Shown one piece after another: positions 3,541 through 31,876 of a stretch of DNA of 32,173 nt. The notes under the pieces are model-generated. The model was not told the origin of the DNA. It did no database searches and saw only the letters and a program-made list of their open reading frames with translations. Origin of the DNA: a virus; the IMG/VR virus record IMGVR_UViG_3300010370_000142, positions 1 to 32,173 of that record; one strand, written 5' to 3'. Numbering within the stretch: position 1 is the stretch's first letter; each line of letters opens with the position of its first letter. The position numbers and the translations under genes are program-made.

Positions 3541-4983
3541 TTATGGCATTCCAAATGGGTTTGTTTCTGTAAAATCAATTATGGAATCTGATGCAATTTC
3601 AATGTTATCGTTATCAGCATATCCATCATTGGTTGCAAAGGTATCTATTATTCTTATAACTCTTGATGCTCCAGATTTCGATCCAACTACTCTGTCACCA
3701 ACTACAAAGACCCCAGAAACATTTGAAATTTGCAATTCATTTGTTACAGAATTCCAACTTCTTACTCTTGCAGTTACACCACTGGATGATCCCGTAATTA
3801 TTTCATTAAATACAAAGTCTCCATATGAAGTTGATCCGACTCCAACGTTATTAATTACAATTGATGGAGCAATGCTGTAACCAAGTCCAGCGTTTGTAAT
3901 TCTTATTGATGTGATAGTTCCAGCAGAACTTACTACAGCAGTTGCAGCTGCTGACACAGTTGCAACTCCAGATAAAAATACCTCATTTGTAAATGATACG
4001 GATGGGGAAGAAACATATCCTCCACCACCGTTTGTAATTGCAATCGTTCCTAAAACACCATTACCTATTGATGCTGTAGCAGCTGCTCCCGATCCACCTC
4101 CACCAATAAATCTGATGGTTGGGACTGATGTATATCCATAACCGCTGTTTACAAGTGGAGCACTTTGAACTGACTTGCGATTTGGATCAATGTTGCTGTT
4201 ACAAACAACAACTCCAGAAATAAGTTGAGCAGTTGCTATTCCTGTAAGACCACCAGTTGGTGCAGAAGATATAGCTACTCTTGGCGCAGTAAGATAACCT
4301 CCACCCCTATTTGTTACCGTAATAAATCTTATTCCACCATTGACAATGTTTACTGTTGCTGTTGCTGATGATGCAGTTCCAACAAGAGTTAATTTTTGAA
4401 TTGCTCCAACAATTATTGGATCAGTATCATTATCATCTCCTGGAGTTGGTTCTAAAGTATCATCAATTTCATCAATACTAGTATCAATAATTTCATCTTC
4501 ATAACGAAATAATTCACATCTCAATTCATAAGTATAGTTTCCCTGGAGTTGGTAAAATGGTTTTTCATGCTCAACGTATTTTATTTCAAATAATCTATCG
4601 CCCAATGGAAAATAAACCAAATCACCTTCTTTTGGTCTGGTGTATAATTTAATATTGCTTTGATTTTTTATAAGTGGGGAAATATAAGTCTCAAATCTTT
4701 CTCTTGATATGGTAATTGTCAATTCATTTAAAGCTTGAATTCCAAATTTGGAAAGAATGGTTGGATTATTTCCATATCCATCATAATTTTCAACATATGC
4801 TTCAATTGGATATGCATTATCAAATTTTGATTCTATTAATTCCCTTATGACTGTTTTTTCGGTGATATACTTTCTTGGCAAATAATAAACTTCAACACCA
4901 TACATTCTCAACTGTTCGTTAATAAGATCTTGAACTAAACCTTGTTCAGTTTTTGATCCTTGAAGGAAAAAGGGGTTTAACAT
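3541..4983 (-). CDS. gp14: Neck protein gp14 with large GGxGY-repeat insertion
   Basis: Head-completion/neck protein needed for joining heads to tails. Residues 1-165 match T4 gp14: MLNPFF, LINEQLRMYGVEVYYLPRKY (T4 MRGVECYYVPREY), YVENYDGYGNN, SKFGIQALNELTITISRERF, RPKEGDLVYFPLGDRLFEI (T4 KEGDLIYFPMDNSLFEI) and KPFYQLQGNYTYEL. The last residues TETNPFGMP correspond to the NPFG-type ending of the family. It has 480 residues against 256 in T4. The difference is an insertion at about residues 195-447 that holds four GGxGY repeats (near 217-237, 278-296, 311-330, 357-377) and one SGA module (395-447, SGSSSGVTARVRSW ... GDRVVGSKSGASRV). The insertion probably forms a beta-rich decoration on the neck (inference). 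The start ATG shares a base with the gp13 stop (TAATG). Confidence 0.94.
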   Translation of the reverse strand: MLNPFFLQGSKTEQGLVQDLINEQLRMYGVEVYYLPRKYITEKTVIRELIESKFDNAYPIEAYVENYDGYGNNPTILSKFGIQALNELTITISRERFETYISPLIKNQSNIKLYTRPKEGDLVYFPLGDRLFEIKYVEHEKPFYQLQGNYTYELRCELFRYEDEIIDTSIDEIDDTLEPTPGDDNDTDPIIVGAIQKLTLVGTASSATATVNIVNGGIRFITVTNRGGGYLTAPRVAISSAPTGGLTGIATAQLISGVVVCNSNIDPNRKSVQSAPLVNSGYGYTSVPTIRFIGGGGSGAAATASIGNGVLGTIAITNGGGGYVSSPSVSFTNEVFLSGVATVSAAATAVVSSAGTITSIRITNAGLGYSIAPSIVINNVGVGSTSYGDFVFNEIITGSSSGVTARVRSWNSVTNELQISNVSGVFVVGDRVVGSKSGASRVIRIIDTFATNDGYADNDNIEIASDSIIDFTETNPFGMP

Positions 4984-14767: not shown

Positions 14768-16321
14768 TTAGAATTGCAAAATGATTTTGATATCTTCTTT
14801 TTGATTTGAAGACCTAGTTATAGATGGTCTGTTGTCAATGTAAATAATATTTCCACTATATTTTTGAACTTCTGGCTCAGAAATACCATTAGTAAATTCT
14901 TGACCCAAATAGTAGGTCCTATTATTTATTACCGTAGAAAGACCACTAAAAGAAGTGTGAATCGCTAAAGTGCTTGCTGCACCAACGATACTTATAGATC
15001 CTGTATTTGCTGGAGATCCTGTAAAACGGTGTAAAGTGTAACCATACGTTGGAGAAGTATTTTGGGTTCCATTCGTATTAAAACCTGCAAAGGTTCTGTC
15101 CTGCCAATATTTTAAAACTCCAGTTGTTGAATCATAAGAGATAACTCTACCAACAGCCGTGGATCCAACTCCAATTGTTTGGGTTATGTAACTATCCGCT
15201 GAAAATGTTGCTGTTGTATAGTCTGCTCCAGTTAATTTTATTGCATACACAGCACTTGCTTTTTCTAAAGTTAAATTGTCGGTAGTTGAATTTAAAACTT
15301 TAGGACTTTCAACGATGCCAATTCTAGCAATTTCATTTCCTGTTATAAAATCTGGATTTGATGTATCATTTTCAATCCTGCTATAAATCAAAACATTTTT
15401 TGCACCCAATTCTCTATAAATATCGGCGCCATGACCTCCTTGTGGAGGTATAATTACATTAAAAGATGGTGCTGATGTTCCTACCGGAATTTTTCCAGTT
15501 AAATCTAAAGTTCCAAAGGTATATCCACTACCTCCACTCGAAACTGTTACAGATTCTACTTTTTGGTCATTGTTAATAGTTACAATTGCTTCTGCACCAC
15601 GCCCATCCCCTCTGATAGGAACTCCTGTATAAGTTCTATTTGCAGTTCCTACACCAACGCCTCTATTTGTAATTGTAACTATCTTTATTTGACCACTTGT
15701 TGCCGCATTATCTCTTACTGCAGCGACATCGGAATTTGTTGCCCAATCAATAGGGACTGGCATATAATTTGTAGTATCAAATTTAATAATATCACTTGGC
15801 TTTATTGTATAAAGATACTTCCAAATATACCCATCGCCACTAGATCCAGCTTCTCTTGGTTCCAAATCAATAAAAGTTGGTTCATCAAGAGAAGGTCTTC
15901 CCTCTGGATAATCTGGACTGGTTCCATTATGTAAGCAAATATAAACTCTATAATCACTATTCATCACATAGTAGTTTGCATCATACAAACTAAATGCATT
16001 TGATGGTTTTGATCTATTTTCTGCTCTAATGTCATGACGATACATATCATATGTAATACCAGATTGCCAAGCAATTTTTTTGATTACTGGTTTTACATCT
16101 GAAGGAGTTATTTTCTTCAGAGCAATCATTGTATCCCAATAACTAAATTCTTGGTCAAAATTATCTCTTGGATCTGGTGGACTAGAATTCCAAGTTGAAC
16201 TTATTTCTGTTGCATTTGGTAATCCAACAAAAGTGTAATATGAGTTACTTGTGGATGCAACACCGGCAATAAAGTTTTGGGCATTTAATATACGAAGTTG
16301 ATCAGTTATAATTGCAGACAT
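14768..16321 (-). CDS. gp8: Baseplate wedge subunit gp8
   Basis: Wedge protein that dimerises and joins gp10, gp7 and gp6 in the T4 baseplate. The N-terminal half matches cyanophage gp8: MSAIITDQLRILNAQNFI, SNSYYTFVGLP, WDTMIALKKITPSDVKPVI, WQSGITYDMYRHD, NYYVMNSDYRVYICLHN, and then GYIWKYLYTIKPSDIIKF followed by YMPVP. It has 517 residues against 334 in T4. The extra length is mostly in the C-terminal half, which holds two GGxGY-type repeats (about 210-224 and 253-266, VESVTVSSGGSGYTFG) and an SGA-like unit (about 386-406, GRVISYDSTTGVLKYW). The start follows a late promoter element at 16340-16347. No Shine-Dalgarno sequence is seen in the 18-base leader. Confidence 0.93.
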   Translation of the reverse strand: MSAIITDQLRILNAQNFIAGVASTSNSYYTFVGLPNATEISSTWNSSPPDPRDNFDQEFSYWDTMIALKKITPSDVKPVIKKIAWQSGITYDMYRHDIRAENRSKPSNAFSLYDANYYVMNSDYRVYICLHNGTSPDYPEGRPSLDEPTFIDLEPREAGSSGDGYIWKYLYTIKPSDIIKFDTTNYMPVPIDWATNSDVAAVRDNAATSGQIKIVTITNRGVGVGTANRTYTGVPIRGDGRGAEAIVTINNDQKVESVTVSSGGSGYTFGTLDLTGKIPVGTSAPSFNVIIPPQGGHGADIYRELGAKNVLIYSRIENDTSNPDFITGNEIARIGIVESPKVLNSTTDNLTLEKASAVYAIKLTGADYTTATFSADSYITQTIGVGSTAVGRVISYDSTTGVLKYWQDRTFAGFNTNGTQNTSPTYGYTLHRFTGSPANTGSISIVGAASTLAIHTSFSGLSTVINNRTYYLGQEFTNGISEPEVQKYSGNIIYIDNRPSITRSSNQKEDIKIILQF

Positions 16322-16353: not shown

Positions 16354-19300
16354 TCAGATGTAATTATTGTATTTGAGTGGTATTACTCTAGAAACTAATG
16401 CTGAAGTTGAAATGCCATTTGATCCATTTCTGGTATATGCATCAAAAGATTTTGCATTTACCCTTTCGCCCAAAACAACTCTTCCCCAAGAGTAATTTCC
16501 AAAAAATGTAGTATGACTAATTCCACTTATTGAATTATTTGTTACACTAACAGTTACTTTGGCAACAGTGGTTGTTCCTACTCCCGGAATTGAAGTTTGA
16601 GCAGTAGAAACAGATGCAACTTCGTAAACATTATCCAAGAATTGTGTTCCTATACCTAAAATTGATCCATCGCCATAAAGTGAAGTTGATGGATTACCAA
16701 CATTACTGTTATTGACAACAAAATAATAACCAGTCTGTATTCCACTAACTGTAGTTATTCCAGAACCACCCATTATATTCGCAGATCTTAAATATGAATC
16801 TGATGGAATATAAAAATTGAATGTAATTCCTGTTTGTGCTACTCCAACTATTGATGTTGTAGCAATTCCAACAATTACCCCAAAATCTCCAGAGTACGAT
16901 AAAACATTATTAGTTTCATATGTTGGTGTTGGGGGTGAAATCAAAACAACTGGTGGATTGGTTGAGGTATATGCTGATCCAGTTGTAGTTCCTCCATATG
17001 AAACAATAATAGATGTGACAATACCAGAAGTTATTGAAGAAATTGCAACTGCTCTTTGTGTTGTTCCAAGACCAACAGGAGTTGCGATGGTGACTTCTGG
17101 GGCAGCACTGTATCCACTCCCTCCATTTAAGATTGATACTGAAGTTATTGTTCCACCAGATGAAACAATAGCAGTAGCTGCAGCAGATATTAATTCATTA
17201 TTTGAAATAATAGAAATCTTTTTCTGATTTATTGAAGTCTGATTTTCTCTCACAGAATCAAAGAAAGTTTTTACATTATCAACAAAAATTACTGTTGATG
17301 CAATACCAACACTTTGAATTATATAAGCAGATGGTAAAACAAGAGGTTCATATAAAGTTCTGCTCTTACCAACTACAATATTATTAACCAATTTGTCACT
17401 TCTCTGGTGACACCAGGTTACAGAACGAATACAATTTGGATCATCACTAATTCCAGGACCAACATATGGATTGGTTTCTACAGTGTCAGAAGAAATGATT
17501 TTGGTTACAAGTCTTTCATCTTGCTGAATTGAGTCTATGCAAAGAGATTCATTGGCATTTATTGTCAAAGTATCACCAACTTTTACAGTTTCTATAACAT
17601 CAGTAAATTGTACGTCAATTTCTCCACTACCCTTATAGAAAAGAATTTTGCATTTATCTCCTGTACCATCAATTCCATCTACTGGAGCTTTTGGTGGTTC
17701 TGCAAACGTAATGACACTTCCTCCAGTGAAAGTATAACCGTCTCCAGGAACTTGAAGGATGTCATTCAAGAATACTAATAACGTTGCTTGTACATCAATA
17801 TTGGATCCTTGTTTTGATCTGATTGTAACAGGAGATCCATTCTTATTAATTGTAAATTTCCTCTTGACTCCATCAAATTGATCTTCTATTTTATCAAATA
17901 CTTCCAATTCACCGATGTTCCATCCAGAAAAACTATCTGATGCAACTTTTTCAACTGTAATTTCAAAATTTGAAAATAGTTTAGAAGGGTCTGTTGGAAT
18001 ACCAGTTAATCCACCAGTTGCAACTGTAAGAATTTGTTTGTTTTGATATCTATATCCAAGATTTGAGATTTCAAAATCAATAACACTTGATCCCTGACCA
18101 ACAACAATATCAATAGTTGCTTCTGTTCCAATTCCAGATGGACTAGAAGAACTATAAATCAAAGGTATATTGCTATAAGATAATGGAGCATCAAAAATGA
18201 CATTTGGTGGGTTGGTGGCGGTATATCCAGAACCAGGATTGGTAATTGTAACACTTACAATATGACCATTACTTACAGAAGCAGTTCCTATGAACTGAAT
18301 ATTTGGATTACCTACTGATGAAGTAAATACGCCAACATTGACTACTGTTTGAATTCCTGCTCTATACCCAGATCCACTATTTCCAATACTAATTGAAGAT
18401 ATTGTCCCTGCAATTGAAACAATTGCTGTTCCACCAGCAGAAACTAATGGTTGATACCCAAGTCCTGCAGTTGAACCTACTGATACAATAACTCCACCAA
18501 CCGGGATAGTTGCAGTATTTGGATCTGAAGAAACCGATGTTGCTGCTCCAAGGAAAGAAATTGAAGTAATTCCTGCATTTTCAGATAAATTATAATCTTG
18601 TGTTTGAAGAAGAGTTCCTTGTGGACCTTGGAAAACACCATTAATTAATACAATAGAATTGTTTGTGGAAAATCCAGTAATATTCTGCCCATTTGCCTTT
18701 AAAATAAAATGTTTTGTCGATGCATCAAATTGATCTGAAATATCATCGAAAATATAATTTTTAGAATATGTTTCATTTGTTGATCCAATCGAAGCATTTC
18801 TTAAGAAGGTTCTTCCTTGGAATTTTGCCGATGTTGAAATTCCGGTCCAGTCTCTTTCATCTGGACTGTTGGTAGATGAACCAATTGGAGTCAATCCTTT
18901 TGGAGCATCAACAAAATTAATAGTATTATCAACAATATTGTAATTTCCAGTTATTTTGGTTACTAGTGAAGATGTAGAATGTGTTGACAAACCTGTTCCC
19001 ATCCATGGTCTTTTAACTAAAATATAGTTTGTACTTCCAAATCCAACACTCTCAATTTTCATTATCTCATCATTGACTTTTATAAGATCACCGCTAAAGA
19101 ATGACGTTATTCCAGAGAATTTAAGAACGTTATCAGTTCTTGATACGCTTGTTGTAATTCCCGTTGTTACTGACGTTGAAACAATTGGTGATTGGATATA
19201 GTTATCAATTGCGATTAAACATCTACCATTTTGGTTTTTTGATGTTAATGTATGCGAAGCTCCTATACCAACGCTTACAATATCTAAAGCAGCAGGAGTT

Positions 19301-22300
19301 GTTTTTAAAGCATCTTCTGCACTTCTCGCAAGTTTAACTCTTCTTTCATCAACTTTGATTGCAAAAACTTTAGAAGGAACTTTATTAGTTACACCAATAC
19401 CAGTACCAAAATCAGTTGATGCAATACCAATTGCTTGTGTACTTCCAGCTCCAGAATGTGTATAAATGAGTTCCTCTCCAGTAACAAAGAAATGTCCAGA
19501 GATAACAATACTGTTAGAATCAGTATCCACGACAGAACTATCATTTCCTAGGAAATCTCTTTGGAATATATTTCTTCCACCATGTGTCAATCCAAATGCT
19601 CTCTTTACGTCGGAGAAAGTTCCTTCGTACATTGCAAATCCCGCATTTATTTCTCCATTGTTCATGTCAATATTTAAATTTGATGTCAATGATGTTGGGT
19701 TTACCAACTGTAAAGACATTTGAAACACTCTAACTTGAACATTAATGTTTGGATTTGGGGTAAAATATAGTTGAGTGTGTGTTGTACCAGCACCAGCTCC
19801 TATTGTTCCAACTCCTGATACTGTTTCTATGCTTCCATATTCAGTTATAAATGCTTCACTATCATCATCAACAACAATAACTTCAGACATTTGATAATGT
19901 CCATTGGTTACATCTTCAGCACAAACTATGAAGTATGATGCATCATGCTGATCCTCAAGATCTGTGGGATCAAAGATATTATTATTATATTGGGCAATTA
20001 CATGCTGTGTAGGTGTTGGTGACGATGAAATTGTAGTGATTGTAGAATCAATAAATCCAATGCTTTCATCAACAGGTCCAAAAATGTAAGTGCCAATGCC
20101 AGTTGATGAAGTATTCGCTATTGAAACTTGTATCGTGTTTACATTTACAGTTCCTACACCTGCATTTACAGTAAAATCTACGTTTATATTTGATCCAGAT
20201 ATGTAAGCAGAATATGTTCCTAATCCAGACGATGCTTCAAAAGTGTCTAGACCAAATGTTGTCATCTGCCCATATTCTAAAAGATAAACTTCACTGTTAT
20301 CATGAATAAGACTTAACTCATTAACCTCATAAACAGTGCTATCTCCAACCTTATCAACTTCAACTAGTATTTTTGATGCTCTGTAAGAATTTGCAATTGA
20401 TACTATAGTTCCTGTAGATGCTGGTGCAATTGATGTTTTGTTAGTTTTAATTAAAACAGTATCACCTAAAGAAGTAGATCCAACACCAGAGACAGAACTA
20501 TCTAAATTAAAACTAATATAACTTATATCAAAATCATTAACTTCATATAATGTGGGATAGAAAAGAAGATAACCATCACCTTCACTGAAGGTTACATCAA
20601 AACTACCCAAATCATAAGCAGTTTCAACTCTACCATATTGACTTAAGTATCCTCTTACTCCATTATGAGCAATACTAACCATCATAGATTGTCTTTCACC
20701 AGTATATCTCTTATCCCTCATATAGGTGAAATACTTCTTAACTTTTTGTCCAATATCGAAACTGTCTACTATAGCATATGGGGTTGATCTTGGTTCACTG
20801 TTAAATTGTCCACTAATGTCATCTATTATTAAGACTCTGTTACCAATAGATTCAAAAAAGTCTGTTAAAACTCTATTTGAAAAATAAATTTCAGATGATA
20901 CAATTCTATCTGAAACATTCAGTTTATTTTCAAAAACAGAATCATAATCAACATAACAAGACAAATCATATTCACTTACCAAGTCATTAAATGTGTCTAC
21001 TGTACTTCCAGAGTTTGGTGTATTTGATATAATTTGCGTTCCTGCTGATGATTCTATTTGTAAATCAGAAAATTTAACAAATCCAGAATTGTGAGAGAGT
21101 GAACTAACAACATTGTTCCATTCTTCAAAAGGAACATGAGATTTAATTGTATATGAGAAGTTTTGATAATACTCGTTATTTTGAATTCTGTGAAGATTAT
21201 TATTTAAAAATCCAACTTCATTTTCCCAACCAATTATAACTTCTGAAGCAGCATCTGTATCAACATATGCATTAAAGTTGTATTTTTTACCAACTACACC
21301 TGTTGTTTTTGTTCCCAATCCTTTAATGATATCACCTGGATTAAATTCTTTTGATGATGAAAGTTTTAAAATATTGACTTTTTCATTCCAACTTTCAACT
21401 TGTCCGACTTTGTTTTCGGATACAACCAATTCTCCTTTGGCAAAAGAACTTTTCTTTAATTTTACGTCAAAAATTGGAAAATCCTTTTGAGCAACAATTC
21501 TTCCTGAAGAATTAAGTGCATCAAAATTACCTGGAATTTCCCCTCCATTTAAGAAGTTGGACATATTAAAAGTAACTATTCCAACATTGCCACCTAACCC
21601 AGAAGTTCCCTGTGGAACAGCAGTTAAAGTAAATAATTCATATCCATAATTTGAAGAATTATATCCTTTTCCAGTTGTAGCAATACCAACACTAACATTT
21701 TCAATTAAAACTTTGTCTCCAACAGAAAATGGGAAAATATCACTAAAACCAGTATTTAATCCAACTGAAACATCTTTTGTTATTGGATTGTAAGTGATAG
21801 ATTCTATTCTACATCCGTTAGAATTGTTGATTGGAATAATTTTTGGTTTTCCGGTTATTCCGTCAGTGTTTTTTAATATTTGAACAAATTTTTGACCAAT
21901 AGAAAATTTCAGATCAGTATCATCAACTATTTCGTTAGTATATTCGTCAATTAAAACAAGTCCTGGTGATAAAGAATATCCATTACCGGCAGAAGTAACA
22001 CCAATGTAATCTAATTTGTTTAATGGGAGAACTTCAAATACTTCTGGAAGATTGCAAGAAGGTCTTAAAGTTTTATCTGTCGGATAATCATATCCAAGTA
22101 AATCTGATGAAATAGAGACAACAGTTCCGATACCAGCACCAAAAGGAGTAAGTATTGCATCAATACCACCTTCACTTGTTATAGTTGATATTCCTGGCAG
22201 TTTTGTGTAACCATATCCATTGTACTGCACCTTTATAGTTGAAATTCCACCAACTGCTTGTGATGATGTAGTTTTATACGATAAACTGCCTTGAGTTAAA

Positions 22301-25300
22301 GTATATGAAGATGATTCTGGCGATCCAATAAGATTGTATGTGAAAGTTGTACTTCCTACTCCAGAAACAGTAAAAGAACCATTGTATTTGCTTGAAATAA
22401 TATTCAATAAATTGTTATTCTTGACATCTTCATCTAAAACAATTTCAGATTTTACTGGAGGAATGAAATTCGACTTGGTTGGAACTAATTTATAAAATAG
22501 TTTAGATGGAACTCTATCATCTACTGTTAAAGTTAGTTTAGCATTTGAAGAAATACCAACTGCTCCAATAGAAGAAACATTGAATACATTTCCGGATAAA
22601 GTGCCATAAAATTCTTGAGTAAATTGTTCGTCAGTATACAACTTTAATTCAAATGCAGAATATACTGATGATCCAGAAACAAACGATAATGAACTATCCG
22701 ACAAATCAAATACAACTCTATTATCTCTATAAACCAATACTTCTGGATTAATTGGAGATAGTGTCCCTGATGATGCAGATGTTATATTTACAATATCTTT
22801 TTCAAATGTACTAGTACCGTATTTTGAAGTGGATAATTTAATTGAGTCATTTGTATAACGAATCGCATAATAAATTTTTTCACTTTGAAGTCCACCACAT
22901 GGCGAAGATGCTGTATGAATAACACTATCACCAGTCTTTAAATTGTGATTTAAAATTTGAATGGTATCCGTGACTATATCAACATCAGATGCTGTAAATG
23001 TTCTTGGATTTACGACCATTCTTCTGTGATAATCATTATATTTTATAGTTACAGTATTTGTTGTAGATGGTTTAATAGATACTGTAACTTGATCGGAAAT
23101 TGCCAAATTATGAGTTGATGCTGTAGATACCGTTACAATATTTTTTGTGACTTCAGACTTTACAGAATTTTGTTTGATAGTTTTAAAACTATGATAAACA
23201 TCAGTTCCAAAATCAAGGAAATACAATAATCCACCAGTCGTTCCTACACCAGCAAAAGTTCCTGTTGTTCCTATTCCTATCTTAACTGTTGAAATTCCCA
23301 AAAGATTTTGAGAAATATTCGCTGCGTATACTGTGCTAGAATCTTGTAGTCTGAAAATACTGGATCCTGTTGATACTTGAATTGGTGTTCCACCATTACT
23401 TGAGTAAATTAACGGGTCTCCAGTGGTAATATTATGTTGTGGTATATAAATTGATTGTGTTGGAATAAAAATTTGAGTAATTCCAGCTCCAACATTTGAA
23501 AAGACTATAGTTGAACCTATTCCAACACCAGAAATACTTCCTAGTCCAACAGACTCTCCTGGGTTGAAGTAAATTTGATAGTCTCTTTCAAAAACTACAT
23601 TTGATTGTGGTTTAGAATTAAAAGTAAATTTTCTAGAAATTTCAGTAACAACAGATGTTGCAGTGTGTGCTGATCCAGTTGTTCCTTCAACTTCTCTTAA
23701 AACTCTTAATCTGGACGATAATAAATCTACGTTTAAAACTTTAAACTTTTCATTTTCAATTTGAACAATATCATTTTCTCTAACTGTAGAGTTACTTAAA
23801 TTTCCAGATAATGAAATATAAGTAACTATTCCAGTGGTAGATGTGTTACCTATTGATGTTGCAAGAGAATATTTTTCACTTGTAACTCCAATTACATGCG
23901 CTCCATCTAGTCCTGATGAAAAAGTCGTAATGCCAGAAATAGTAACCAGATCTCCATTCAATAAATTATGGGGAGAATTTGAATAAACTACATATCTACC
24001 ATCTGCATTTAAAGGAGATATTTCGGCATTATAAATTACAGTCGATGCAGCACTAACAGAAGAAATTTCTTTTCCTGTAACCTCACTAACTATTGCAGAT
24101 GCTCCAGTTCCTCCTGTTCCTTCATTGTCAAATACTATTTCATCGCCAACTTTATATCCACTTCCACCATTATCAATGACAATACTATCAATCTGACCTT
24201 CTGATGCAACTTTAATGTTTGCCAAGTAATTCTTATCTCTCAATGGAGAGAAGAAGTAATCATAAAAAGTGTTAAGACTTTGCGTATTGTAAGGAGAGGT
24301 ATTCCTCAACCATGGATTTGTACGATTTTTATCGGACAAGTCATATTTGCTCTGATTTGATTCTTTATCAAAATTAAAATCTATTGGTTTTGATTTAAAA
24401 GTATTTCCAATTACATATGGGAATACTGGTTTTTTATATCCAGTAAATGGAAAGACAGACTCAACAAACGAAACATCTACAGTTGTAAAGTATGCATAAG
24501 TTCCATTTGGATACTCTGGTGTTACACAGTATCTTCCATTATGCTCGTCTAAATCTCCATTTCCTTTAAATTCATAGTCTTCTACAAAAAACCCTTCAGG
24601 AAAACGTGGTCTATTTTCTTTGGATACCAATTCATATCCAGACTTCATAAGTCTAGTTGTTCCGCCAGTTCTACTTGCAAATCCATATGGACCATAAATT
24701 GGATTTCCATCATATGCCCATCCAATAATTGGTGAATGATATCTTGAATTTATTTCAGAACCATTCACAAGTTGCAAATCAAAAACACCATATTTTGTCT
24801 CATTATTTTGAATTTTTTGATATACAGATTCTCTTAATTTTCTAGGAGTATATAAGTGAGAGTATTGTAATCCGTTATTGTCATTCAGTGACTGTTTAAT
24901 ATATCCATCATCCAACGAAGTAATATTTAAATTCTTTTGGAATGCATTTACGTTCCACTGTTTTATATCGAATGATAGATCAGCACCTCTTCCCGAAGGA
25001 ACTACCGTAATTGCAGTAGAAGAATTAAATCCAGATCCGCCATTTATTACTTTTACTGAAGATAATCTTCCGTTTCTTAAAACAGGAGTTAAAACTGCAT
25101 TAGTACCAATTCCAGATATTAAAAGATCTGGAGGAGAATTATATTGTTCTCCTCCATAATTAACAATTACTTCTGTAATAGATCCATCATTGACGATTGG
25201 AAACAACTCTGCATCTTTTCCACTTAAAAATTCATAATTTGGTTGACGACTATAATTCAAAATTTCGGATGATCCATAACCAATTCCACCAGATTTTATG

Positions 25301-28300
25301 TCAACTGATTCAATTCCACCTCTAAAAATTGGTTGAATTTTAGCATTAAAATCCTGACCAGAAAATGTTGATACTCCAATTAGACCAGAAATAGTTACAG
25401 TTATTGGTTCATAATTAAACGTATGTACACCACTTCCTGTTGAAGTCAATTGCACATACTGTTGAGTTTCATAATAAAAATACTTGTTTGTAGATGCTAC
25501 TCCAACTGGAGAAAGTTTAAAATTGTCATCATCTACTTTTGTAACAATATATCTTGAAATTGTGGATAATCCTGAAATAATATTTCCAGATGAATTGTAT
25601 ACTATCACCTCTCCAGAATTATATCCATGATCTTGAATATTAATGTATCCTAAAGATGTATTAATTCCTGAAATTTGACAAGTTCTTTCTTTATTTTGAT
25701 AATTCTCTCCTGAATTTGTAACTAAAATACTTGTAATTATTTTCTTCTTATCGAGAGATTCAAATCTATGATTTCCTGTTCCATAATCATTAAGTGAAAT
25801 AGCATTTGTTCCAGAGAGTGCGTCTCCTTCCGTATTATAGAGTTTAATAGTCTGCTCATCTATAACATTAGCATAATATAATGAATTGGTTGTTAACCCA
25901 GATATTGCCTTTTCACCATCTGTTTTATAAACAACTTGCTCAATGCCTCTAAACTTATGATAAGTGGAAAATCCGATTGTATCGTTTGAAAGATTTACAT
26001 ATCCAGAAACTACAGTTGAATCAAAAGAAACAGAATGAACAATTAAAGATGTATTAACTTTTGCTTCTGCTCCAATTCCATTGCCACCAGTAATATCAAT
26101 TACTGGATCTCCCATATAATCAAATCCAGTTTCTATTACATCAATTCTTTGTAAATTTCCAGATACTGATACTGTTCCAGTTGCCCCAATTCCAATTTCA
26201 TCTGTTATTAAAAGTTTGGGTGGGTTTATAATATCATAGTTATCACCGGATCTGTTTACAAAACATTTTTGAATTTCTCCATATCTAACAAAATCAGTGG
26301 CTTTATAGTTTGTCAGTTCAACTCCGTTTACAAACATTCCAATATTTGAACCAATAGGAGTTGGATATGTCCCGCTTTCGTTATTTGGTTCTGGGAAAAA
26401 CCTTAATAAATTTTGAGATTTAATGGGAGCATCTTTAAATTCAGCTGGTTGAATATAATTGGATGTTACAATTCCAGAAACAGATAAAAAGTTATTTTTG
26501 AAAACATCTGCTCTACTTCTTGCAAGTTTTAATTGATTAGAATTTATTCTCTTTACAAAATATATTCCTTCATCAAACGCTGTAAATTTACTTTCAACCT
26601 CTACAGATACTCCATCTCCATCATCATCATTAAATAAAATTCCTTTTTTATAATAAATGGAATCCCCAGTATAATATCCATGATCATTGATATTTGATGG
26701 ATAATTATTAATCGTTAAAGTGTCTCCAGAAAAAGTTCCATTTAGAGGAATAACTCTGTCATAAAATGATAAAGGTTGATTTTTATATGATGGTATTGAT
26801 GGTGAAGCAACTAAAACTTCTCCATCAAAATTGCAATAAACACTTTGTATATCTGAATTATAACTGTTAATATATGAATACTTTTGTAAGTTTGTGCTTA
26901 CTTGTGATTTTTTTATTTTTCTTTCAATAGAATACTTTCCATTTACACCTAAAAGTCCTTGACCACGTATAGTGAAAGTTTTCCTATCAAAAATTGCAAC
27001 TATATTGCAATCGTATGAATTATCATTGCTATCTTTTAAAGTTGCAGCATCTCCTACAAAGAAAATATTGTCATCATACGTTTTTACTCTATATGTTTGA
27101 TTAGAACTGTCAATTAAAGATATTTGTTCTATGTTATATCTTAATGGAATATTTAAGACCCAATCAACTGCTTTTGAAGTTGTATTTGCAATTCCAGGAT
27201 AAGTTAAACTTGCAGAATCACCTTTTGAAAAATAAAATGTATCATCTACAATTTGTACATTCTTAAAAATAGATCCGATCCTAACCTTAACTGGATTGGA
27301 TGTGGATAATCCCGAATATCCATATGCATAAGCATCAAGCCTAATTGTTGAACCGATACTAACTGAAAATGAAGTTGGTTCTACTCCAAAAAATTGTGTT
27401 AATGTCTTTGAGGAATATGATAGACTTTCATTACTTCCATTTGAAAGAGATACAACAATTTTTCCAGAATCTGGGAATCCAACTGTTGAATCTACATCGA
27501 GTGTTGTTGAACCTGAAGAAACTTGTGTAGTAGTTCTTGTGTTTGGATGAGGTACAAACGGTGCATAAGAATTTCCAGTTGTATTTTTTGGATCATCATA
27601 ATCATAATTTAATTTTAATCTATAGTAATCTTTAGTATCTGTTTTTAGGACTTCAATATCAGCAATTGCTGCTTCTGAACGTTGAATTCCATAATTGCTA
27701 ATGGCATCTTGATATAATGTTCTGTTTTTTAAGGTTGATGGATCTCCTTCTATTGCTTCAACGATAATATCTTTTGTTTTTCTAAAAATAGCGTCAGAAG
27801 GTTTTAACAGAAAATCTTTTGGATTGATAACTCTAATATCATCTCCATAAAGCATTCCAAAAAGAATTCTAACTGATTCTTCAGTTCCCTTTGAATCATA
27901 AAAATCCGAAATTTTACCAATCAGAGTCTTTTGATTGACTTTTGAAGAAATGTCCCTATCTTCAAACCCAGGAAGAAATTGGTCTTTTAATTTTCTTAAA
28001 AACTTTTCTAAAAATAAAACGCTTAAGTTTTCAATAGTAGATTCACCACTATGTGCTGCCGCTTCGGTTTCTTTAAAAACTAATTGTTCTGGACTATCTC
28101 CCTTTCCATATTTTACAACCCCACTAAAACCACGAACACACTCATCAAATGTCCTGTCGGTTTTTGATTTATAAAGAATAATTTCATCATTTATTTTTAA
28201 TAAACCATATCTATCGGGAAAACCATACGTTCCCAAAAGATTTTCAGATGGATTGTATACAGCTGATATAGAAGTGCTGAACTCATCTAACTCTCCATCG

Positions 28301-28515
28301 AGAACACAATTTTTGCTGTGGTTTGTCAGTGAGTCTAAATCAAAATATTGGTCTATATTTTGCAATAGATCTAAAGTAGAACCAGTATATCCCTGTGACG
28401 CATAATATTCTTTAAAAAATTCATTTATAAGTGGATATCCGTCTCTTACAAAAGCAGGAAGTTGTGAAGAGATAAGATCTTTAATTTTGACTCTGGTTCT
28501 ATCTGTTGATATCAT
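16354..28515 (-). CDS. Giant 4053-residue YHYH-domain virion structural protein, in the gp7 position
   Basis: A 12.2-kb uninterrupted gene between gp6 and gp8, where T4 has gp7 (1032 residues). I see no convincing similarity to T4 gp7, so equivalence is by position only. The N-terminus (RTRVKIKDLISSQLPAFVRD, then LINEFFKEYYASQGYTGSTL) and about the first 240 residues are helical and of a type known from cyanophage structural proteins. Residues about 1215-1345 hold a YHYH-type domain: LYTPRKLRESVYQ, HSPIIGWAYDGNPIYGPYG at 1260, FFVEDYEF, HNGRYCVTPEYPNGTYAYF. The His pair that names the family is replaced by Ala-Tyr. The rest is a string of short beta modules: at least a dozen GGxGY repeats (about 745-3830), five or more HxxxxGE...Y units (about 605-3090) and others. 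It is probably a long baseplate or host-contact protein. Its start is 18 bases after the gp6 stop. Confidence 0.9.
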   Translation of the reverse strand: MISTDRTRVKIKDLISSQLPAFVRDGYPLINEFFKEYYASQGYTGSTLDLLQNIDQYFDLDSLTNHSKNCVLDGELDEFSTSISAVYNPSENLLGTYGFPDRYGLLKINDEIILYKSKTDRTFDECVRGFSGVVKYGKGDSPEQLVFKETEAAAHSGESTIENLSVLFLEKFLRKLKDQFLPGFEDRDISSKVNQKTLIGKISDFYDSKGTEESVRILFGMLYGDDIRVINPKDFLLKPSDAIFRKTKDIIVEAIEGDPSTLKNRTLYQDAISNYGIQRSEAAIADIEVLKTDTKDYYRLKLNYDYDDPKNTTGNSYAPFVPHPNTRTTTQVSSGSTTLDVDSTVGFPDSGKIVVSLSNGSNESLSYSSKTLTQFFGVEPTSFSVSIGSTIRLDAYAYGYSGLSTSNPVKVRIGSIFKNVQIVDDTFYFSKGDSASLTYPGIANTTSKAVDWVLNIPLRYNIEQISLIDSSNQTYRVKTYDDNIFFVGDAATLKDSNDNSYDCNIVAIFDRKTFTIRGQGLLGVNGKYSIERKIKKSQVSTNLQKYSYINSYNSDIQSVYCNFDGEVLVASPSIPSYKNQPLSFYDRVIPLNGTFSGDTLTINNYPSNINDHGYYTGDSIYYKKGILFNDDDGDGVSVEVESKFTAFDEGIYFVKRINSNQLKLARSRADVFKNNFLSVSGIVTSNYIQPAEFKDAPIKSQNLLRFFPEPNNESGTYPTPIGSNIGMFVNGVELTNYKATDFVRYGEIQKCFVNRSGDNYDIINPPKLLITDEIGIGATGTVSVSGNLQRIDVIETGFDYMGDPVIDITGGNGIGAEAKVNTSLIVHSVSFDSTVVSGYVNLSNDTIGFSTYHKFRGIEQVVYKTDGEKAISGLTTNSLYYANVIDEQTIKLYNTEGDALSGTNAISLNDYGTGNHRFESLDKKKIITSILVTNSGENYQNKERTCQISGINTSLGYINIQDHGYNSGEVIVYNSSGNIISGLSTISRYIVTKVDDDNFKLSPVGVASTNKYFYYETQQYVQLTSTGSGVHTFNYEPITVTISGLIGVSTFSGQDFNAKIQPIFRGGIESVDIKSGGIGYGSSEILNYSRQPNYEFLSGKDAELFPIVNDGSITEVIVNYGGEQYNSPPDLLISGIGTNAVLTPVLRNGRLSSVKVINGGSGFNSSTAITVVPSGRGADLSFDIKQWNVNAFQKNLNITSLDDGYIKQSLNDNNGLQYSHLYTPRKLRESVYQKIQNNETKYGVFDLQLVNGSEINSRYHSPIIGWAYDGNPIYGPYGFASRTGGTTRLMKSGYELVSKENRPRFPEGFFVEDYEFKGNGDLDEHNGRYCVTPEYPNGTYAYFTTVDVSFVESVFPFTGYKKPVFPYVIGNTFKSKPIDFNFDKESNQSKYDLSDKNRTNPWLRNTSPYNTQSLNTFYDYFFSPLRDKNYLANIKVASEGQIDSIVIDNGGSGYKVGDEIVFDNEGTGGTGASAIVSEVTGKEISSVSAASTVIYNAEISPLNADGRYVVYSNSPHNLLNGDLVTISGITTFSSGLDGAHVIGVTSEKYSLATSIGNTSTTGIVTYISLSGNLSNSTVRENDIVQIENEKFKVLNVDLLSSRLRVLREVEGTTGSAHTATSVVTEISRKFTFNSKPQSNVVFERDYQIYFNPGESVGLGSISGVGIGSTIVFSNVGAGITQIFIPTQSIYIPQHNITTGDPLIYSSNGGTPIQVSTGSSIFRLQDSSTVYAANISQNLLGISTVKIGIGTTGTFAGVGTTGGLLYFLDFGTDVYHSFKTIKQNSVKSEVTKNIVTVSTASTHNLAISDQVTVSIKPSTTNTVTIKYNDYHRRMVVNPRTFTASDVDIVTDTIQILNHNLKTGDSVIHTASSPCGGLQSEKIYYAIRYTNDSIKLSTSKYGTSTFEKDIVNITSASSGTLSPINPEVLVYRDNRVVFDLSDSSLSFVSGSSVYSAFELKLYTDEQFTQEFYGTLSGNVFNVSSIGAVGISSNAKLTLTVDDRVPSKLFYKLVPTKSNFIPPVKSEIVLDEDVKNNNLLNIISSKYNGSFTVSGVGSTTFTYNLIGSPESSSYTLTQGSLSYKTTSSQAVGGISTIKVQYNGYGYTKLPGISTITSEGGIDAILTPFGAGIGTVVSISSDLLGYDYPTDKTLRPSCNLPEVFEVLPLNKLDYIGVTSAGNGYSLSPGLVLIDEYTNEIVDDTDLKFSIGQKFVQILKNTDGITGKPKIIPINNSNGCRIESITYNPITKDVSVGLNTGFSDIFPFSVGDKVLIENVSVGIATTGKGYNSSNYGYELFTLTAVPQGTSGLGGNVGIVTFNMSNFLNGGEIPGNFDALNSSGRIVAQKDFPIFDVKLKKSSFAKGELVVSENKVGQVESWNEKVNILKLSSSKEFNPGDIIKGLGTKTTGVVGKKYNFNAYVDTDAASEVIIGWENEVGFLNNNLHRIQNNEYYQNFSYTIKSHVPFEEWNNVVSSLSHNSGFVKFSDLQIESSAGTQIISNTPNSGSTVDTFNDLVSEYDLSCYVDYDSVFENKLNVSDRIVSSEIYFSNRVLTDFFESIGNRVLIIDDISGQFNSEPRSTPYAIVDSFDIGQKVKKYFTYMRDKRYTGERQSMMVSIAHNGVRGYLSQYGRVETAYDLGSFDVTFSEGDGYLLFYPTLYEVNDFDISYISFNLDSSVSGVGSTSLGDTVLIKTNKTSIAPASTGTIVSIANSYRASKILVEVDKVGDSTVYEVNELSLIHDNSEVYLLEYGQMTTFGLDTFEASSGLGTYSAYISGSNINVDFTVNAGVGTVNVNTIQVSIANTSSTGIGTYIFGPVDESIGFIDSTITTISSSPTPTQHVIAQYNNNIFDPTDLEDQHDASYFIVCAEDVTNGHYQMSEVIVVDDDSEAFITEYGSIETVSGVGTIGAGAGTTHTQLYFTPNPNINVQVRVFQMSLQLVNPTSLTSNLNIDMNNGEINAGFAMYEGTFSDVKRAFGLTHGGRNIFQRDFLGNDSSVVDTDSNSIVISGHFFVTGEELIYTHSGAGSTQAIGIASTDFGTGIGVTNKVPSKVFAIKVDERRVKLARSAEDALKTTPAALDIVSVGIGASHTLTSKNQNGRCLIAIDNYIQSPIVSTSVTTGITTSVSRTDNVLKFSGITSFFSGDLIKVNDEIMKIESVGFGSTNYILVKRPWMGTGLSTHSTSSLVTKITGNYNIVDNTINFVDAPKGLTPIGSSTNSPDERDWTGISTSAKFQGRTFLRNASIGSTNETYSKNYIFDDISDQFDASTKHFILKANGQNITGFSTNNSIVLINGVFQGPQGTLLQTQDYNLSENAGITSISFLGAATSVSSDPNTATIPVGGVIVSVGSTAGLGYQPLVSAGGTAIVSIAGTISSISIGNSGSGYRAGIQTVVNVGVFTSSVGNPNIQFIGTASVSNGHIVSVTITNPGSGYTATNPPNVIFDAPLSYSNIPLIYSSSSPSGIGTEATIDIVVGQGSSVIDFEISNLGYRYQNKQILTVATGGLTGIPTDPSKLFSNFEITVEKVASDSFSGWNIGELEVFDKIEDQFDGVKRKFTINKNGSPVTIRSKQGSNIDVQATLLVFLNDILQVPGDGYTFTGGSVITFAEPPKAPVDGIDGTGDKCKILFYKGSGEIDVQFTDVIETVKVGDTLTINANESLCIDSIQQDERLVTKIISSDTVETNPYVGPGISDDPNCIRSVTWCHQRSDKLVNNIVVGKSRTLYEPLVLPSAYIIQSVGIASTVIFVDNVKTFFDSVRENQTSINQKKISIISNNELISAAATAIVSSGGTITSVSILNGGSGYSAAPEVTIATPVGLGTTQRAVAISSITSGIVTSIIVSYGGTTTGSAYTSTNPPVVLISPPTPTYETNNVLSYSGDFGVIVGIATTSIVGVAQTGITFNFYIPSDSYLRSANIMGGSGITTVSGIQTGYYFVVNNSNVGNPSTSLYGDGSILGIGTQFLDNVYEVASVSTAQTSIPGVGTTTVAKVTVSVTNNSISGISHTTFFGNYSWGRVVLGERVNAKSFDAYTRNGSNGISTSALVSRVIPLKYNNYI

Positions 28516-28533: not shown

Positions 28534-30516
28534 TTAGTTAATGGTAGTTGAGGAAGGAGTTGTGGTAGTTGCGAGTATTGGTGTTCCTCGTACTAAACTT
28601 GTATTTGCATAACTTGAAGAAACAATGTAACTACTTCCAGAAACATCAGCTCCAGATGAAATGGTATCTGGTAAAGCATTGATAGTGCTGTTATTAATAT
28701 CTATCTGCAAATAAAGATCCTGTAATCCGATAACATCATTTGAATGAGGAGAAACTGAAATTTGAACAATAGAGACTCCACCATCCTGAAGTTCAGTTCT
28801 GATTATGTTAATTGGATTGAGTCTAATTTCACCTTTCAAATAATCAATTTGACCGATTGAGTCTCTTACAATTTCTGGATTTCTTGCAGAATTTAACTTG
28901 AATAAGAATATTGTACCGTATCTTCTACTACTTGTGCTTGTTGTATTTGGTCTATCGCCAAGATAGACTGCATATGGATACCCACTTACATAAAATGCAC
29001 TTGTCTTAATATTGTATCCAGTTTCATTTCCGATATGGAATTGATTTCCATAGCATATTTCATATTCTGCTAAAGTATTGATAGCGGCTTTTAAATCTCT
29101 TCTCATCGTAACATTTGTAATGTTAGATGTAATTGACTGGTGACTATCATCAACCAACTTTAAGAATTTACTATATTTGAAACGAGCACCAAAAGTATTT
29201 AATTCTGGAGACTCTGCATATTCTTGAACATTTTGTAATGCAAGAGAAGTTACAAATGCTTGACTTGGAGCTAAATTGCTGTTGTAATAAGCGACAACAT
29301 CAGTCTCAAGATACAAATATTTTAGATCAACAATTTCGGGTTGAATTCCTGCTACCGCATATTGACGCAATTTCGTCTTGATTTCATTCTTTGCAGAGTT
29401 TGACAAATATGGTCCATTCGTCGGTTTAATTGCCAAGAATACTTTTCCATATTGAGGTGGATTCAATTCCTCTCCACCATAGGCAGCAATTGCATCAATG
29501 AATGGATATACTTTGGGAGTAATGATTTCATAATCCCTTGATGTCACTGCTCTATATCTTGCTGAATAAAATCTTGGAGCATACTTTTTAATAGAGTCAA
29601 CACTTTCTATAGATTTTCCGTTTGATGAGACCTCTTGTGTAGTGATTTGAGAAATTCCAGACAATGCGACAGTTTCTGCACCACTTGAAGTATATGTTAT
29701 TCTTCCAGTAAATCTAAAGGAGTCAATTCTATTCGCTAGTGCTCCATTTGTTGTGATGTAAGAAACTTCAATGTAACTATTATCAGGTGGTTTTACCCCA
29801 AAGACATCATCTCCAAAAATTAATTCATATCTTTCATCTTCAATTTCATTAATATAAAAAACTGGTTCTGTTGGACCAACTCCAAAAATTGAATCTGTTT
29901 GTCTATATTCTCTTGATATTGTTGATGTTCTAGATGGCTTAACAGTGACTCTAATAGTTTCAGTGTCAATTCCTGCGTTTGGTAAAATATATCTTTGTCT
30001 TGGAGTAAGAGGATTTACAGTAAAATCTGCCGTTAAATATGTTCCCTCATAAACTTCTACATTTTCAAACAAAGCAAAGTTTGAAATAACTGGAACAGTT
30101 ATGTCTGACAAAGATGCAAATGTAAAATTATCCCCAACATATCCAGTTCCTGTAGCACACACCAAACCTTTATGTAGAGTAAGAGATGCTGGTGGTGTTT
30201 GATAACCTGTTGATGTATCTACAAAAAATGTTATAAGTGCTTTTGCACATTTTTTAGATCTTGGTACGTAACCAATATTTCTTGCAAGAGAAACAACATT
30301 TTCTCTTAGAGTTGCACTATCAATAAAGACTTCGTTTGTCACCATGTTTGCATTATATGATGCAATATAGGTGTTATATGCAAGCATATCAACAATCACA
30401 GAAAGATTTGATCCCTCAAAATCATAATCAGTGAAATTTGAGTTATTTCTTAAGTAATCTCTGATTGACTGCTTAATCTGGTCAAAATCCAGATTTGTAA
30501 AATTAATAAGTGACAT
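28534..30516 (-). CDS. gp6: Baseplate wedge subunit gp6
   Basis: Baseplate J-like protein; in T4, gp6 dimers form the inner ring that holds the wedges together and drives baseplate opening. Here 660 residues, the T4 length. The N-terminus (NFTNLDFDQIKQSIRDYLRN, then DYDFEGSNLSVIVDMLAYNT, then NEVFIDSATLRENVVSLARN, then IGYVPRSKKCAKALITFFVD) is the typical family opening. The middle carries RQTDSIFGVG, FYINEIEDERYELIFGDDVF, SYITTNGALANRID and KYAPRFYSARYRAVTSRDYE (about residue 310), the gp6/J hallmark, followed by YPFIDAIAAYGGEELNPPQY and GKVFLAIKPTNG. The start overlaps the gp25 stop by one base (TAATG), as expected for two wedge subunits made together. Confidence 0.96.
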   Translation of the reverse strand: MSLINFTNLDFDQIKQSIRDYLRNNSNFTDYDFEGSNLSVIVDMLAYNTYIASYNANMVTNEVFIDSATLRENVVSLARNIGYVPRSKKCAKALITFFVDTSTGYQTPPASLTLHKGLVCATGTGYVGDNFTFASLSDITVPVISNFALFENVEVYEGTYLTADFTVNPLTPRQRYILPNAGIDTETIRVTVKPSRTSTISREYRQTDSIFGVGPTEPVFYINEIEDERYELIFGDDVFGVKPPDNSYIEVSYITTNGALANRIDSFRFTGRITYTSSGAETVALSGISQITTQEVSSNGKSIESVDSIKKYAPRFYSARYRAVTSRDYEIITPKVYPFIDAIAAYGGEELNPPQYGKVFLAIKPTNGPYLSNSAKNEIKTKLRQYAVAGIQPEIVDLKYLYLETDVVAYYNSNLAPSQAFVTSLALQNVQEYAESPELNTFGARFKYSKFLKLVDDSHQSITSNITNVTMRRDLKAAINTLAEYEICYGNQFHIGNETGYNIKTSAFYVSGYPYAVYLGDRPNTTSTSSRRYGTIFLFKLNSARNPEIVRDSIGQIDYLKGEIRLNPINIIRTELQDGGVSIVQISVSPHSNDVIGLQDLYLQIDINNSTINALPDTISSGADVSGSSYIVSSSYANTSLVRGTPILATTTTPSSTTIN

Positions 30517-30917
30517 TATCGTGACTGTTGTAAAGCAAAGTCTAACTGTTGTGGTTGAGCTTCGATACCAATAATATCATAGACAATTCTGACATAATAC
30601 CCAGTATCATTTTCATCCACTTCAACATTAACTTCTTTTAAACTAACTCTCGGTTCAAATGTTCTGATGGTATCTTCAATACTCGATTGAATTGCTGCAG
30701 CACTGATAAAGTCAACATTTTCAAAAAGGGTTACAGAAACGTCAGATCCGAGTCTTTGATTAAAAGGTCTTTCCCCTCTTTGAGTTAAAACCAAATTTTG
30801 AATTGAACGAGCAATAGCACTTTCATTTCGCAGGTCAACCAAGTCACGATTCAACGGATTAGTCCCAAAAGAAAGACTAATGTCTCTAAATGCTTGGCTG
30901 ACCCTTTCGATTGGCAT
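30516..30917 (-). CDS. gp25: Baseplate wedge subunit gp25
   Basis: GPW/gp25 family (lysozyme-like fold name, no enzymatic role), the core wedge protein that starts sheath assembly and is conserved in all contractile systems. It has 133 residues against 132 in T4. Family marks visible: FRDISLSFGTNPLNRDLVDL at about 10-29, ESAIARSIQNLVLTQRGERP at about 32-51, then FNQRLGSDVS, where the glutamate of RGERPF is the conserved EPR-type core contact, and a C-terminal VNVEVDENDTGYYVRIVYDI strand pair. Transcription probably starts at the NATAAATA element 20 bases upstream, which overlaps the stop of the 83-residue gene. No Shine-Dalgarno sequence is visible. Confidence 0.96.
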   Translation of the reverse strand: MPIERVSQAFRDISLSFGTNPLNRDLVDLRNESAIARSIQNLVLTQRGERPFNQRLGSDVSVTLFENVDFISAAAIQSSIEDTIRTFEPRVSLKEVNVEVDENDTGYYVRIVYDIIGIEAQPQQLDFALQQSR

Positions 30918-30936: not shown

Positions 30937-31188
30937 CTATTTATTAGGTTCATAGAGGGGTTCAGTGCCATATTCCCAGTCATCATAATCAGCATCATTA
31001 CGAATTTTTGAGTGTAATTCGTTTTGATACTTAAAATTATGCTTTTTTTTGTTTAAGTCATAGTTAGCAATCTCTTGAATCACTTTTTTTGACTTAATTT
31101 TTTCTTCCCAACCATACTCACTTGACAAATATTGAGTTCCCCACTCATTTTTCATAAAATTTTCGTCTTTATCGACTTGTTTGGTCAT
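30937..31188 (-). CDS. Hypothetical charged protein (83 aa)
   Basis: Eighty-three residues: MTKQVDKDENFMKNEWGTQY, LSSEYGWEEKIKSKKVIQEI, a KKKHNFKYQNELHSKI stretch and an acidic, Asp/Tyr-rich end (DADYDDWEYGTEPLYEPN). The function is not recognised. It has no membrane segment and is hydrophilic throughout. The start is well supported by AGGAG at 31196-31200, seven bases upstream. It overlaps the end of the 231-residue gene by 20 bases, so the two are translated from one message. The stop codon lies inside the late promoter of gp25. Confidence 0.72.
   Translation of the reverse strand: MTKQVDKDENFMKNEWGTQYLSSEYGWEEKIKSKKVIQEIANYDLNKKKHNFKYQNELHSKIRNDADYDDWEYGTEPLYEPNK
30938..30945 (-). promoter_or_regulatory. 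T4-type late promoter upstream of gp25
   Basis: AATAAATA on the coding strand, a perfect NATAAATA, 20 bases before the gp25 ATG. It overlaps the last codons and stop of the 83-residue gene. Confidence 0.6.
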
Positions 31189-31864
31189 TTTTTTGCTCCT
31201 GATTTTGTAAATCAGAACTTTTTACGGGGTTGCTATCCCGAATTTCTGTAATTTCGTACATAAAATCATCGGAAGTCTCAATTTTACGACGATTTTCGAC
31301 GGAATATTCGGTTAAATCTATTTCGTACCCTGGATTTTTGGTAATTCTATTCTTTGTCCAGGCATCATCATACCATAAAATCTTATTATTGGGATATGCA
31401 TAGAAGTTTCCATTATCCATCTTGAAAAAATGAGCACATTTATGCTCTGGAGTCTCACTAAAGTTGGTATTCAGTGTAGATTTTGACTCCCAGGACCAAT
31501 CAAGAGTGAACAAATAGGTCCCTTCGTTCTTCTGCCCCTTATAATTGATTAATTCTGCACGCAATCCTGCTAATCTTGAACGAATTTGAACATCAATATA
31601 AGGAGAAAAACAATCCCACCACATACATTCTTCTAGTTCGGGAACTGGTGCATCTGGTTTCCAGCAAAATGCATGAATTGGTCTGCGAGTCCAGTTAACT
31701 CCATTCTCTAAAAATGCCTCAAACAGTGGTACATGCTTCTCTAATGATGCTACAGAGTGTACGTCACATAAAGTTACCTCTCCATGTCCTTTTTTATGAT
31801 TATAAAGAAACTCATTACGAATGTAACAAGTAATTGTTGGAAGATTGTGATTGAGATATGCCAT
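31169..31864 (-). CDS. Conserved cyanophage hypothetical protein (231 aa)
   Basis: The protein begins MAYLNHNLPTITCYIRNEFL, then YNHKKGHGEVTLCDVHSVAS, and has ENGVNWTRRPIHAFCWKP, ECMWWDCFSPYIDVQIRSRL, then LAGLRAELINYKG, YLFTLDWSWES and HKCAHFFKMDNGNFYAYPNN, then KILWYDDAWT. I know relatives in T4-like cyanophages next to the gp25 region, always without a function. It is rich in aromatic residues and Cys/His, which hints at a compact globular domain; it has no signal peptide or membrane helix. The last 30 residues are polar and probably unstructured. The ATG at 31864 is preferred to a TTG four codons upstream because that TTG lies in the T-run of the terminator and because relatives begin MAYLN. 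No ribosome binding site is clear. Confidence 0.8.
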   Translation of the reverse strand: MAYLNHNLPTITCYIRNEFLYNHKKGHGEVTLCDVHSVASLEKHVPLFEAFLENGVNWTRRPIHAFCWKPDAPVPELEECMWWDCFSPYIDVQIRSRLAGLRAELINYKGQKNEGTYLFTLDWSWESKSTLNTNFSETPEHKCAHFFKMDNGNFYAYPNNKILWYDDAWTKNRITKNPGYEIDLTEYSVENRRKIETSDDFMYEITEIRDSNPVKSSDLQNQEQKNDQTSR

Positions 31865-31876
31865 ATAAAAATCCAA

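Follow-up and report, generated by a model that had tools for sequence, protein, structure and literature searches.

The 4053-residue protein encoded between gp6 and gp8 in a viral DNA sequence of 32,173 nucleotides (hereafter the window, a metagenomic fragment of ~32 kb) is, by profile homology to T4 gp7 as well as by position, a true gp7. As read from sequence alignments, the gp7 core has been retained, yet it is interrupted by an insert of 2133 residues and then followed by a C-terminal extension of 1569 residues. What is new here is the profile demonstration of gp7 identity and the split-core anatomy. Taken as a whole, we consider it highly probable that the protein is the gp7 orthologue of a marine, cyanophage-type T4-like phage and has a split core, whose insert and extension may belong to the periphery of the baseplate.

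The initial annotation had described a single unbroken gene of ~12.2 kb filling 38% of the window. The coordinates, the size and the share are all correct (one uninterrupted frame of 4053 codons, 12162 of 32173 nt or 37.8%), and to these can be added the strand, which had not been given and is the minus strand. At the GC content of the window (33.6%), a run of 4053 codons without a stop would arise by chance with a probability of ~1e-144. An assembly artefact is ruled out by the existence of 41 complete open reading frames of related architecture. Pfam and PHROG profile matches of the neighbouring genes establish the order gp25-gp6-giant-gp8, so that the giant occupies the interval in which the initial annotation had put it, the same interval that holds the 1032-residue gp7 in T4. 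Downstream of gp8 lie a second very large structural gene, coding for a DUF4815 protein in the position of the one named VrlC in P-HM1, followed by neck proteins, a tail sheath stabilizer and the small terminase subunit (Table 1).

Table 1. Coordinates of features in the window; residue numbers within the giant refer to its 4053-residue translation
Feature	Position	Strand	Description
235-aa ORF	31169-31876	-	TTG start; matches PHROG 3704, labelled ferredoxin; no Pfam match
gp25	30516-30917	-	133 aa; Pfam GPW_gp25 E 7e-14; upstream of gp6
gp6	28534-30516	-	660 aa; Pfam Gp6-like_1st E 4.6e-18, PHROG 219 E 1.9e-197; expected wedge partner of the giant gp7
gp7-slot giant gene	16354-28515	-	ATG start; 4053 aa, 438 kDa, pI 4.9
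gp7 core, first half	27739-28497	-	residues 7-259; predicted N-terminal helices and FYxSKGTxxS...LFxxLYG motif
small beta module	28027-28320	-	residues ~66-163, within the first core half; similar copy at 281-397
insert	21340-27738	-	residues 260-2392, 2133 aa; diverged repeated modules including YHYH
YHYH domain	24454-25047	-	residues 1157-1354; PF14240 E 1.4e-26, 94 bits against a cut-off of 25
gp7 core, second half	21064-21339	-	residues 2393-2484; motif DNxYYQxFSYxIxSxxPxxxWxxxVxSxxHxxGF
C-terminal extension	16354-21063	-	residues 2485-4053, 1569 aa; repeated modules
gp8	14768-16321	-	517 aa; Pfam Phage-Gp8 E 9e-16, PHROG 438 E 6e-164
DUF4815 protein	6260-14761	-	2833 aa; also PHROG 358 (function not known)
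gp14-like neck protein	3541-4983	-	480 aa; several diverged G-S-G-Y module copies
541-aa protein	298-1923	-	adjoins small terminase subunit gene; C-terminal DUF6321; matches 14 PHROG families, each without assigned function

The window giant adds one more member to an established family, PHROG 2885, whose proteins go by the name 'baseplate wedge initiator'. The PHROG 2885 profile, labelled 'baseplate wedge subunit', spans residues 5-3402 (profile positions 6-3359; E 0, 3514 bits). A tblastn search with the first 251 residues matched 481 phage records in which Synechococcus and Prochlorococcus phages predominate, bearing out the earlier description of the N-terminus as cyanophage-type. The closest isolates are Synechococcus phage Bellamy, whose gp111 (4067 aa) is 44% identical to the window giant over nearly its full length, and Prochlorococcus phage P-TIM68 (4307 aa). 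A megablast comparison at the nucleotide level, with the gene as query and phage records as targets, returned nothing beyond a stretch of ~60 bp in other cyanophages. Giants of 3000-6600 residues in the gp7 slot are usual among T4-like cyanophages, and GenBank depositors named them gp7 (P-HM1, S-SSM7) or 'baseplate wedge initiator' (Bellamy) years ago; elsewhere the same slot has been labelled virion structural protein (S-PM2) or putative fiber (Syn9 gp101). With so many giants in this slot, several of them already named gp7, a giant there is normal, the novelty implied by the initial annotation was overstated, and the giant gp7 does not amount to a new kind of system.

The identification as gp7, which had been made from position, also holds at the level of homology. 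In blind profile searches against 177,635 distinct PDB sequences, the profile of residues 1-262 had T4 gp7 (residues 725-758) as its top match (E 7.7e-5 and 2.4e-4), with the next unrelated match at E 0.13. For the profile of the second half, T4 gp7 was the only match at E<1 (0.053 and 0.089), in an alignment that is short (23-46 columns) and weak taken alone. HMMs for the two halves were then grown without any T4-family protein and tested on a set of 347 proteins, on which the following E-values are based. The first-half HMM finds T4 gp7 at residues 702-760 (E 8e-9) and the second-half HMM at residues 840-892 (E 1e-3); of 30 gp7s of the T4 family they recognize 29 and 22, respectively, without a single match among 298 background proteins. 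Alignment of profiles (hhalign) gave Prob 96 for the first half and 69 for the second. Both halves map to the C-terminal part of T4 gp7, in the same order as in T4, which indicates that the core has been retained but split. Within the second half, W2466 and H2475 are invariant in all 44 relatives aligned. A bridge between compact and giant forms is provided by the gp7 of the Xanthomonas phage X1 (498 aa), which matches annotated T4-type gp7 by tblastn and aligns to window residues 193-302 and 2428-2532, while its middle resembles repeats in the window insert (1057-1183, 1426-1479 and 2087-2144).

These profiles bear directly on an alternative in which gp7 has been replaced by a giant of other descent, a fibre or structural protein, the wedge role having moved elsewhere, for example to the VrlC/DUF4815 protein. 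T4 gp7 has been stated to be absent from cyano- and pelagimyophages and to be substituted by VrlC (PMC7029224), the Syn9 giant is annotated as a fibre, and a phmmer search of PDB with the whole protein did not find gp7, giving chance matches only. However, the profiles of both core halves have T4 gp7 as their first match in the PDB, the core HMMs have no match outside gp7-slot proteins in the background set, and a survey of ten complete genomes, of which nine belong to marine or freshwater relatives, found each core half once per genome, in the same open reading frame, in the gp6-gp8 slot. Replacement thus appears highly improbable, and the published statement of gp7 absence is corrected by the core homology. 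VrlC as the substitute for gp7 is likewise rejected, given that the core-half profiles find T4 gp7 and that the core is confined to the gp7-slot gene in these ten genomes. In the same survey of relatives a true gp7 encoded elsewhere in the genome, a search for which had been suggested at the outset, was not seen; the extra matches of the core HMMs in the ten genomes involve the small beta module only.

Given that the giant is a gp7, how does its architecture compare with that of other members? In T4 gp7 (PDB 5HX2 and 5IV5) the C-terminal core motifs stand in the same order and the gene likewise lies between gp6 and gp8, but T4 gp7 has an N-terminal part of 650 residues, only ~100 residues between the core motifs, and neither G-S-G-Y repeats nor a YHYH domain. 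T4 gp7 residues 1-650 have no detectable counterpart in the window giant (hhalign Prob <=0.3). The initial annotation's picture of a wedge protein four times the size of T4 gp7 is accordingly right in that the protein is a gp7 and a giant, and needs amending in that the extra length lies inside and behind a C-terminal core and the T4 N-terminal part is undetectable. That part does not seem to define the wider family, since compact gp7s of 482-503 residues have no room for it. Such compact forms, from X1, Stenotrophomonas phage Ps15 and Acidovorax phage ACP17, share both halves with the window giant, set ~205 residues apart, but are without the long insert, the long extension, the beta module in the first half and the YHYH domain.

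Across the gp7-slot proteins tested, lengths range from 482 to 6076 residues, and both core halves are present in every non-T4 member. Given as total length with the gap between the halves in brackets, the series runs from ACP17 at 482 (210), X1 at 498 (201) and Ps15 at 503 (208) through a Desulfovibrio phage at 586 (55), Cr30 at 767 (492), Melnitz at 896 (332), phiM19 at 1007 (754), HTVC008M at 1016 (460) and S-CRM01 at 1454 (1029) to S-SSM7 at 3007 (2125), S-PM2 at 3048 (1528), the window at 4053 (2133), Bellamy at 4067 (2166), P-TIM68 at 4307 (2164), P-HM1 at 4446 (2286) and Syn9 at 6076 (2656). The giants of Bellamy, P-TIM68, P-HM1 and Syn9 (gp101) share with the window the slot, the split core, a similar insert and the YHYH domain, with differences confined to the sequence and to the detail of the extension, except that Syn9 has a longer extension and an additional insert in the first half. 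The latter (gp101 residues 112-603; positions 11096-12571, plus strand, of the Syn9 sequence) is ~490-500 residues long, sits at the small beta module, contains many G-S-G-Y motifs and constitutes a third growth point of giant gp7.

Marine contigs extend this comparison. These were picked by similarity to the window, so represent its clade and not marine phages overall. Searches for related loci with single sequences, from cyanophages or X1, had retrieved nothing beyond close relatives. Among the matches listed, 104 contigs carry both halves in one frame, 41 of these frames being complete open reading frames, and the insert is 2070-2303 residues long throughout; extensions in relatives are mostly of 1484-2650 residues. 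An alignment of 44 full-length proteins, which are 39-65% identical to the window giant, has 425 positions that are at least 95% invariant. Conservation extends through insert and extension alike, with minima near residues 401-550 and 2801-2850. Insert length is kept so strictly that a fixed structural scaffold seems likelier than a rapidly changing tip for receptor binding.

Searches with tile HMMs detected several families of internal repeat. One module type, recognizable by its G-S-G-Y motif, has copies around residues 735-830, 1050-1165, 1421-1498, 3350-3460 and 3750-3870 of the giant, and also in gp8 (188-285) and the neck protein (~185-400), and weakly in the 2833-residue protein; its presence in the neck protein, the giant gp7 and gp8 places one module type at both ends of the tail. 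A second type lies near residues 585-670, 820-900, 925-1005, 1780-1930 and 2980-3093, copies of a third fall between ~2590 and ~2960, and a fourth is common to residues 1542-1634 and 3109-3204 of the giant and residues 239-321 of the sheath-stabilizer protein. In X1 gp7 a G-S-G-Y module is located between the core halves. The simplest history would be that the insert grew by duplication of modules at an old insertion point. The long string of beta modules that had been read from the sequence is thus borne out as several diverged repeat families, while a beta fold is modelled fairly confidently for one module only, that at residues ~66-163.

The small beta module itself is a variable part of the first core half, as positions 58-161 or 58-185 of the HMM are skipped in phiM19, Cr30, X1, Ps15 and ACP17. 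In AlphaFold2 (AF2) models its residues 71-130 form a block with a pLDDT of ~77-84, and the module can be superposed on the JBD30 baseplate chain 8rk3_b (VIA-align Z 8.7, rmsd 2.1 A, 78 residues aligned). Such likeness to beta domains of phage tails and baseplates may reflect a common arrangement only. The core was otherwise modelled mostly with low confidence, the mean pLDDT being 60 for residues 1-262 (48 relatives) and 66 for residues 2312-2500 (46 relatives). With these low-confidence models neither Foldseek nor VIA-align retrieved T4 gp7: the best Foldseek match to the first model had an E-value of 3e-3, the second model had no meaningful match, and VIA-align matches were to the small beta module only, with Z <=8.9. 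Poor folding of isolated halves would be expected if the two halves and gp6 together form one domain, though it is not evidence that they do.

The YHYH domain called central in the initial annotation is present, at ~30% of the length of the protein rather than at its centre. YHYH domains of phage tails have been predicted to be Zn-dependent hydrolases (review, PMC7824862), raising the question of whether the tail here carries a metal-dependent hydrolase for opening the cell envelope, the giant then being gp7 with an added envelope-degrading arm; this would be compatible with the gp7 identity and split core proposed above. Every giant gp7 tested has the domain and the compact forms all lack it; neither H1260 nor D1269 varies among the 44 relatives. 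However, once the domain is aligned with a pair of bacterial YHYH proteins, the tetrapeptide after which it is named proves to be YSHL in the window (Y[STGA]HL in relatives), and the histidine of an upstream NAH motif has been lost while D1269 is retained. The sole nearby histidine, H1220, is present in 35 of the 44 relatives, and no conserved canonical histidine triad that includes the eponymous motif was found among these relatives in comparison with the two bacterial proteins. Loss of the eponymous and NAH histidines, together with the variability of H1220, weakens the hydrolase idea for this clade, and we regard this activity as doubtful.

Is the protein part of the virion? A check had been suggested for its absence, and published proteomics of relatives points the other way, giant gp7-slot proteins having been found in purified virions of two cyanophages. 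The 6619-residue 'baseplate wedge initiator' S-SZBM1_208 was identified by mass spectrometry with 71 peptides and 13.5% coverage (PMC9146016), and ORF122 of S-CREM2 (77594-83407, 1937 codons), which is flanked by ORFs 121 and 123, both annotated as wedge ORFs, with 91 unique peptides (PMC10665884); we assign both proteins to the giant gp7 family by position, size and the names given by the authors.

The S-SZBM1 peptides were assigned to the entire open reading frame and are compatible with either a whole or a cleaved chain. This leads to another alternative, namely that gp7 is cleaved after synthesis into separately acting core pieces, insert and extension, and that no 438-kDa chain is present in the virion. 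Some head proteins of T4-like phages are indeed processed. Moreover, in six loci on five contigs (L068/L148, L140, L179, L192 and L200) the core halves of a giant gp7 lie on adjacent separate open reading frames, so the halves could perhaps function from separate chains. Set against this is the unbroken chain of most relatives, as seen in the 104 both-halves frames and their complete members noted above, and we judge such cleavage to be improbable. As to the broken giants themselves, split genes, frameshifting and sequence errors are all compatible with what is seen; in two different contigs (L192:2514-15238 and L200:76-12827) the break falls at a similar place, ~500 codons after the start.

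Returning to an intact, split-core gp7, what might such a protein do? In T4, XM1 and the type VI secretion system (T6SS), a gp7-type protein joins two gp6-type chains per wedge (PMC10457771, PMC6300606), and the T4 tail contains six copies of gp7 (PMC3004832). XM1 gp17 (242 aa), P2 gpI and TssG of the T6SS are far smaller than the window giant and are likened to it by role, being expected to take the corresponding place in a (gp6-like)2-gp7-like heterotrimer (PMC10457771, PMC6300606). In XM1 gp17, a loop at residues 80-106 (inside the first domain) and the C-terminus, both flexible, hold the tail spikes (PMC10457771). By analogy, the two core halves of the giant would come together in one fold and connect a pair of gp6 chains in a (gp6)2-gp7 heterotrimer in each of the six wedges. 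If the halves do fold back together, insert and extension would emerge from the wedge as a pair of long protrusions, and these could make up the baseplate periphery as a covalent scaffold that carries or anchors receptor-binding parts, possibly including the fibres. The protrusions would in this way do what falls to gp10, gp11 and the gp7 N-terminal domains in T4 and to the two spike-binding parts of the gp7 orthologue in XM1. An outer baseplate skirt or parts that contact the host, as proposed in the initial annotation, are likewise possible roles for the extra mass.

How baseplates function without several T4 proteins is at issue in T4-like phages, the dominant viruses of marine cyanobacteria; gp10, gp11 and gp12 were not found in cyanomyoviruses (review, PMC2984593). 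We tentatively suggest, as a possibility that we hold with rather less than even confidence, that six single-chain giant gp7s do the job of the T4 gp7 N-terminus, gp10, gp11 and gp12, forming a covalent skirt on which the receptor-binding proteins are mounted and by which contraction is triggered, with a fixed-length insert and an extension grown by module duplication at two points of an ancient core. For structural biologists, the split core and the two growth points indicate which ends to seek.

The core homology also exposes misnamed genes. In Pelagibacter phage HTVC008M the gp7 core is held by I899_gp055 (33435-36485, plus strand, 1016 aa), annotated 'head closure Hc2', a wrong name probably due to the repeat module that it has in common with neck proteins (PHROG 460), while two other genes of this phage, I899_gp059 and gp062 (44145-46025 and 46673-49735), are called 'baseplate wedge initiator' and are without the gp7 core. 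Similarly, S-SSM7 has two genes named gp7, of which only the first has the core; the second (SSSM7_103, 29550-38555) codes for a protein of 3001 residues.
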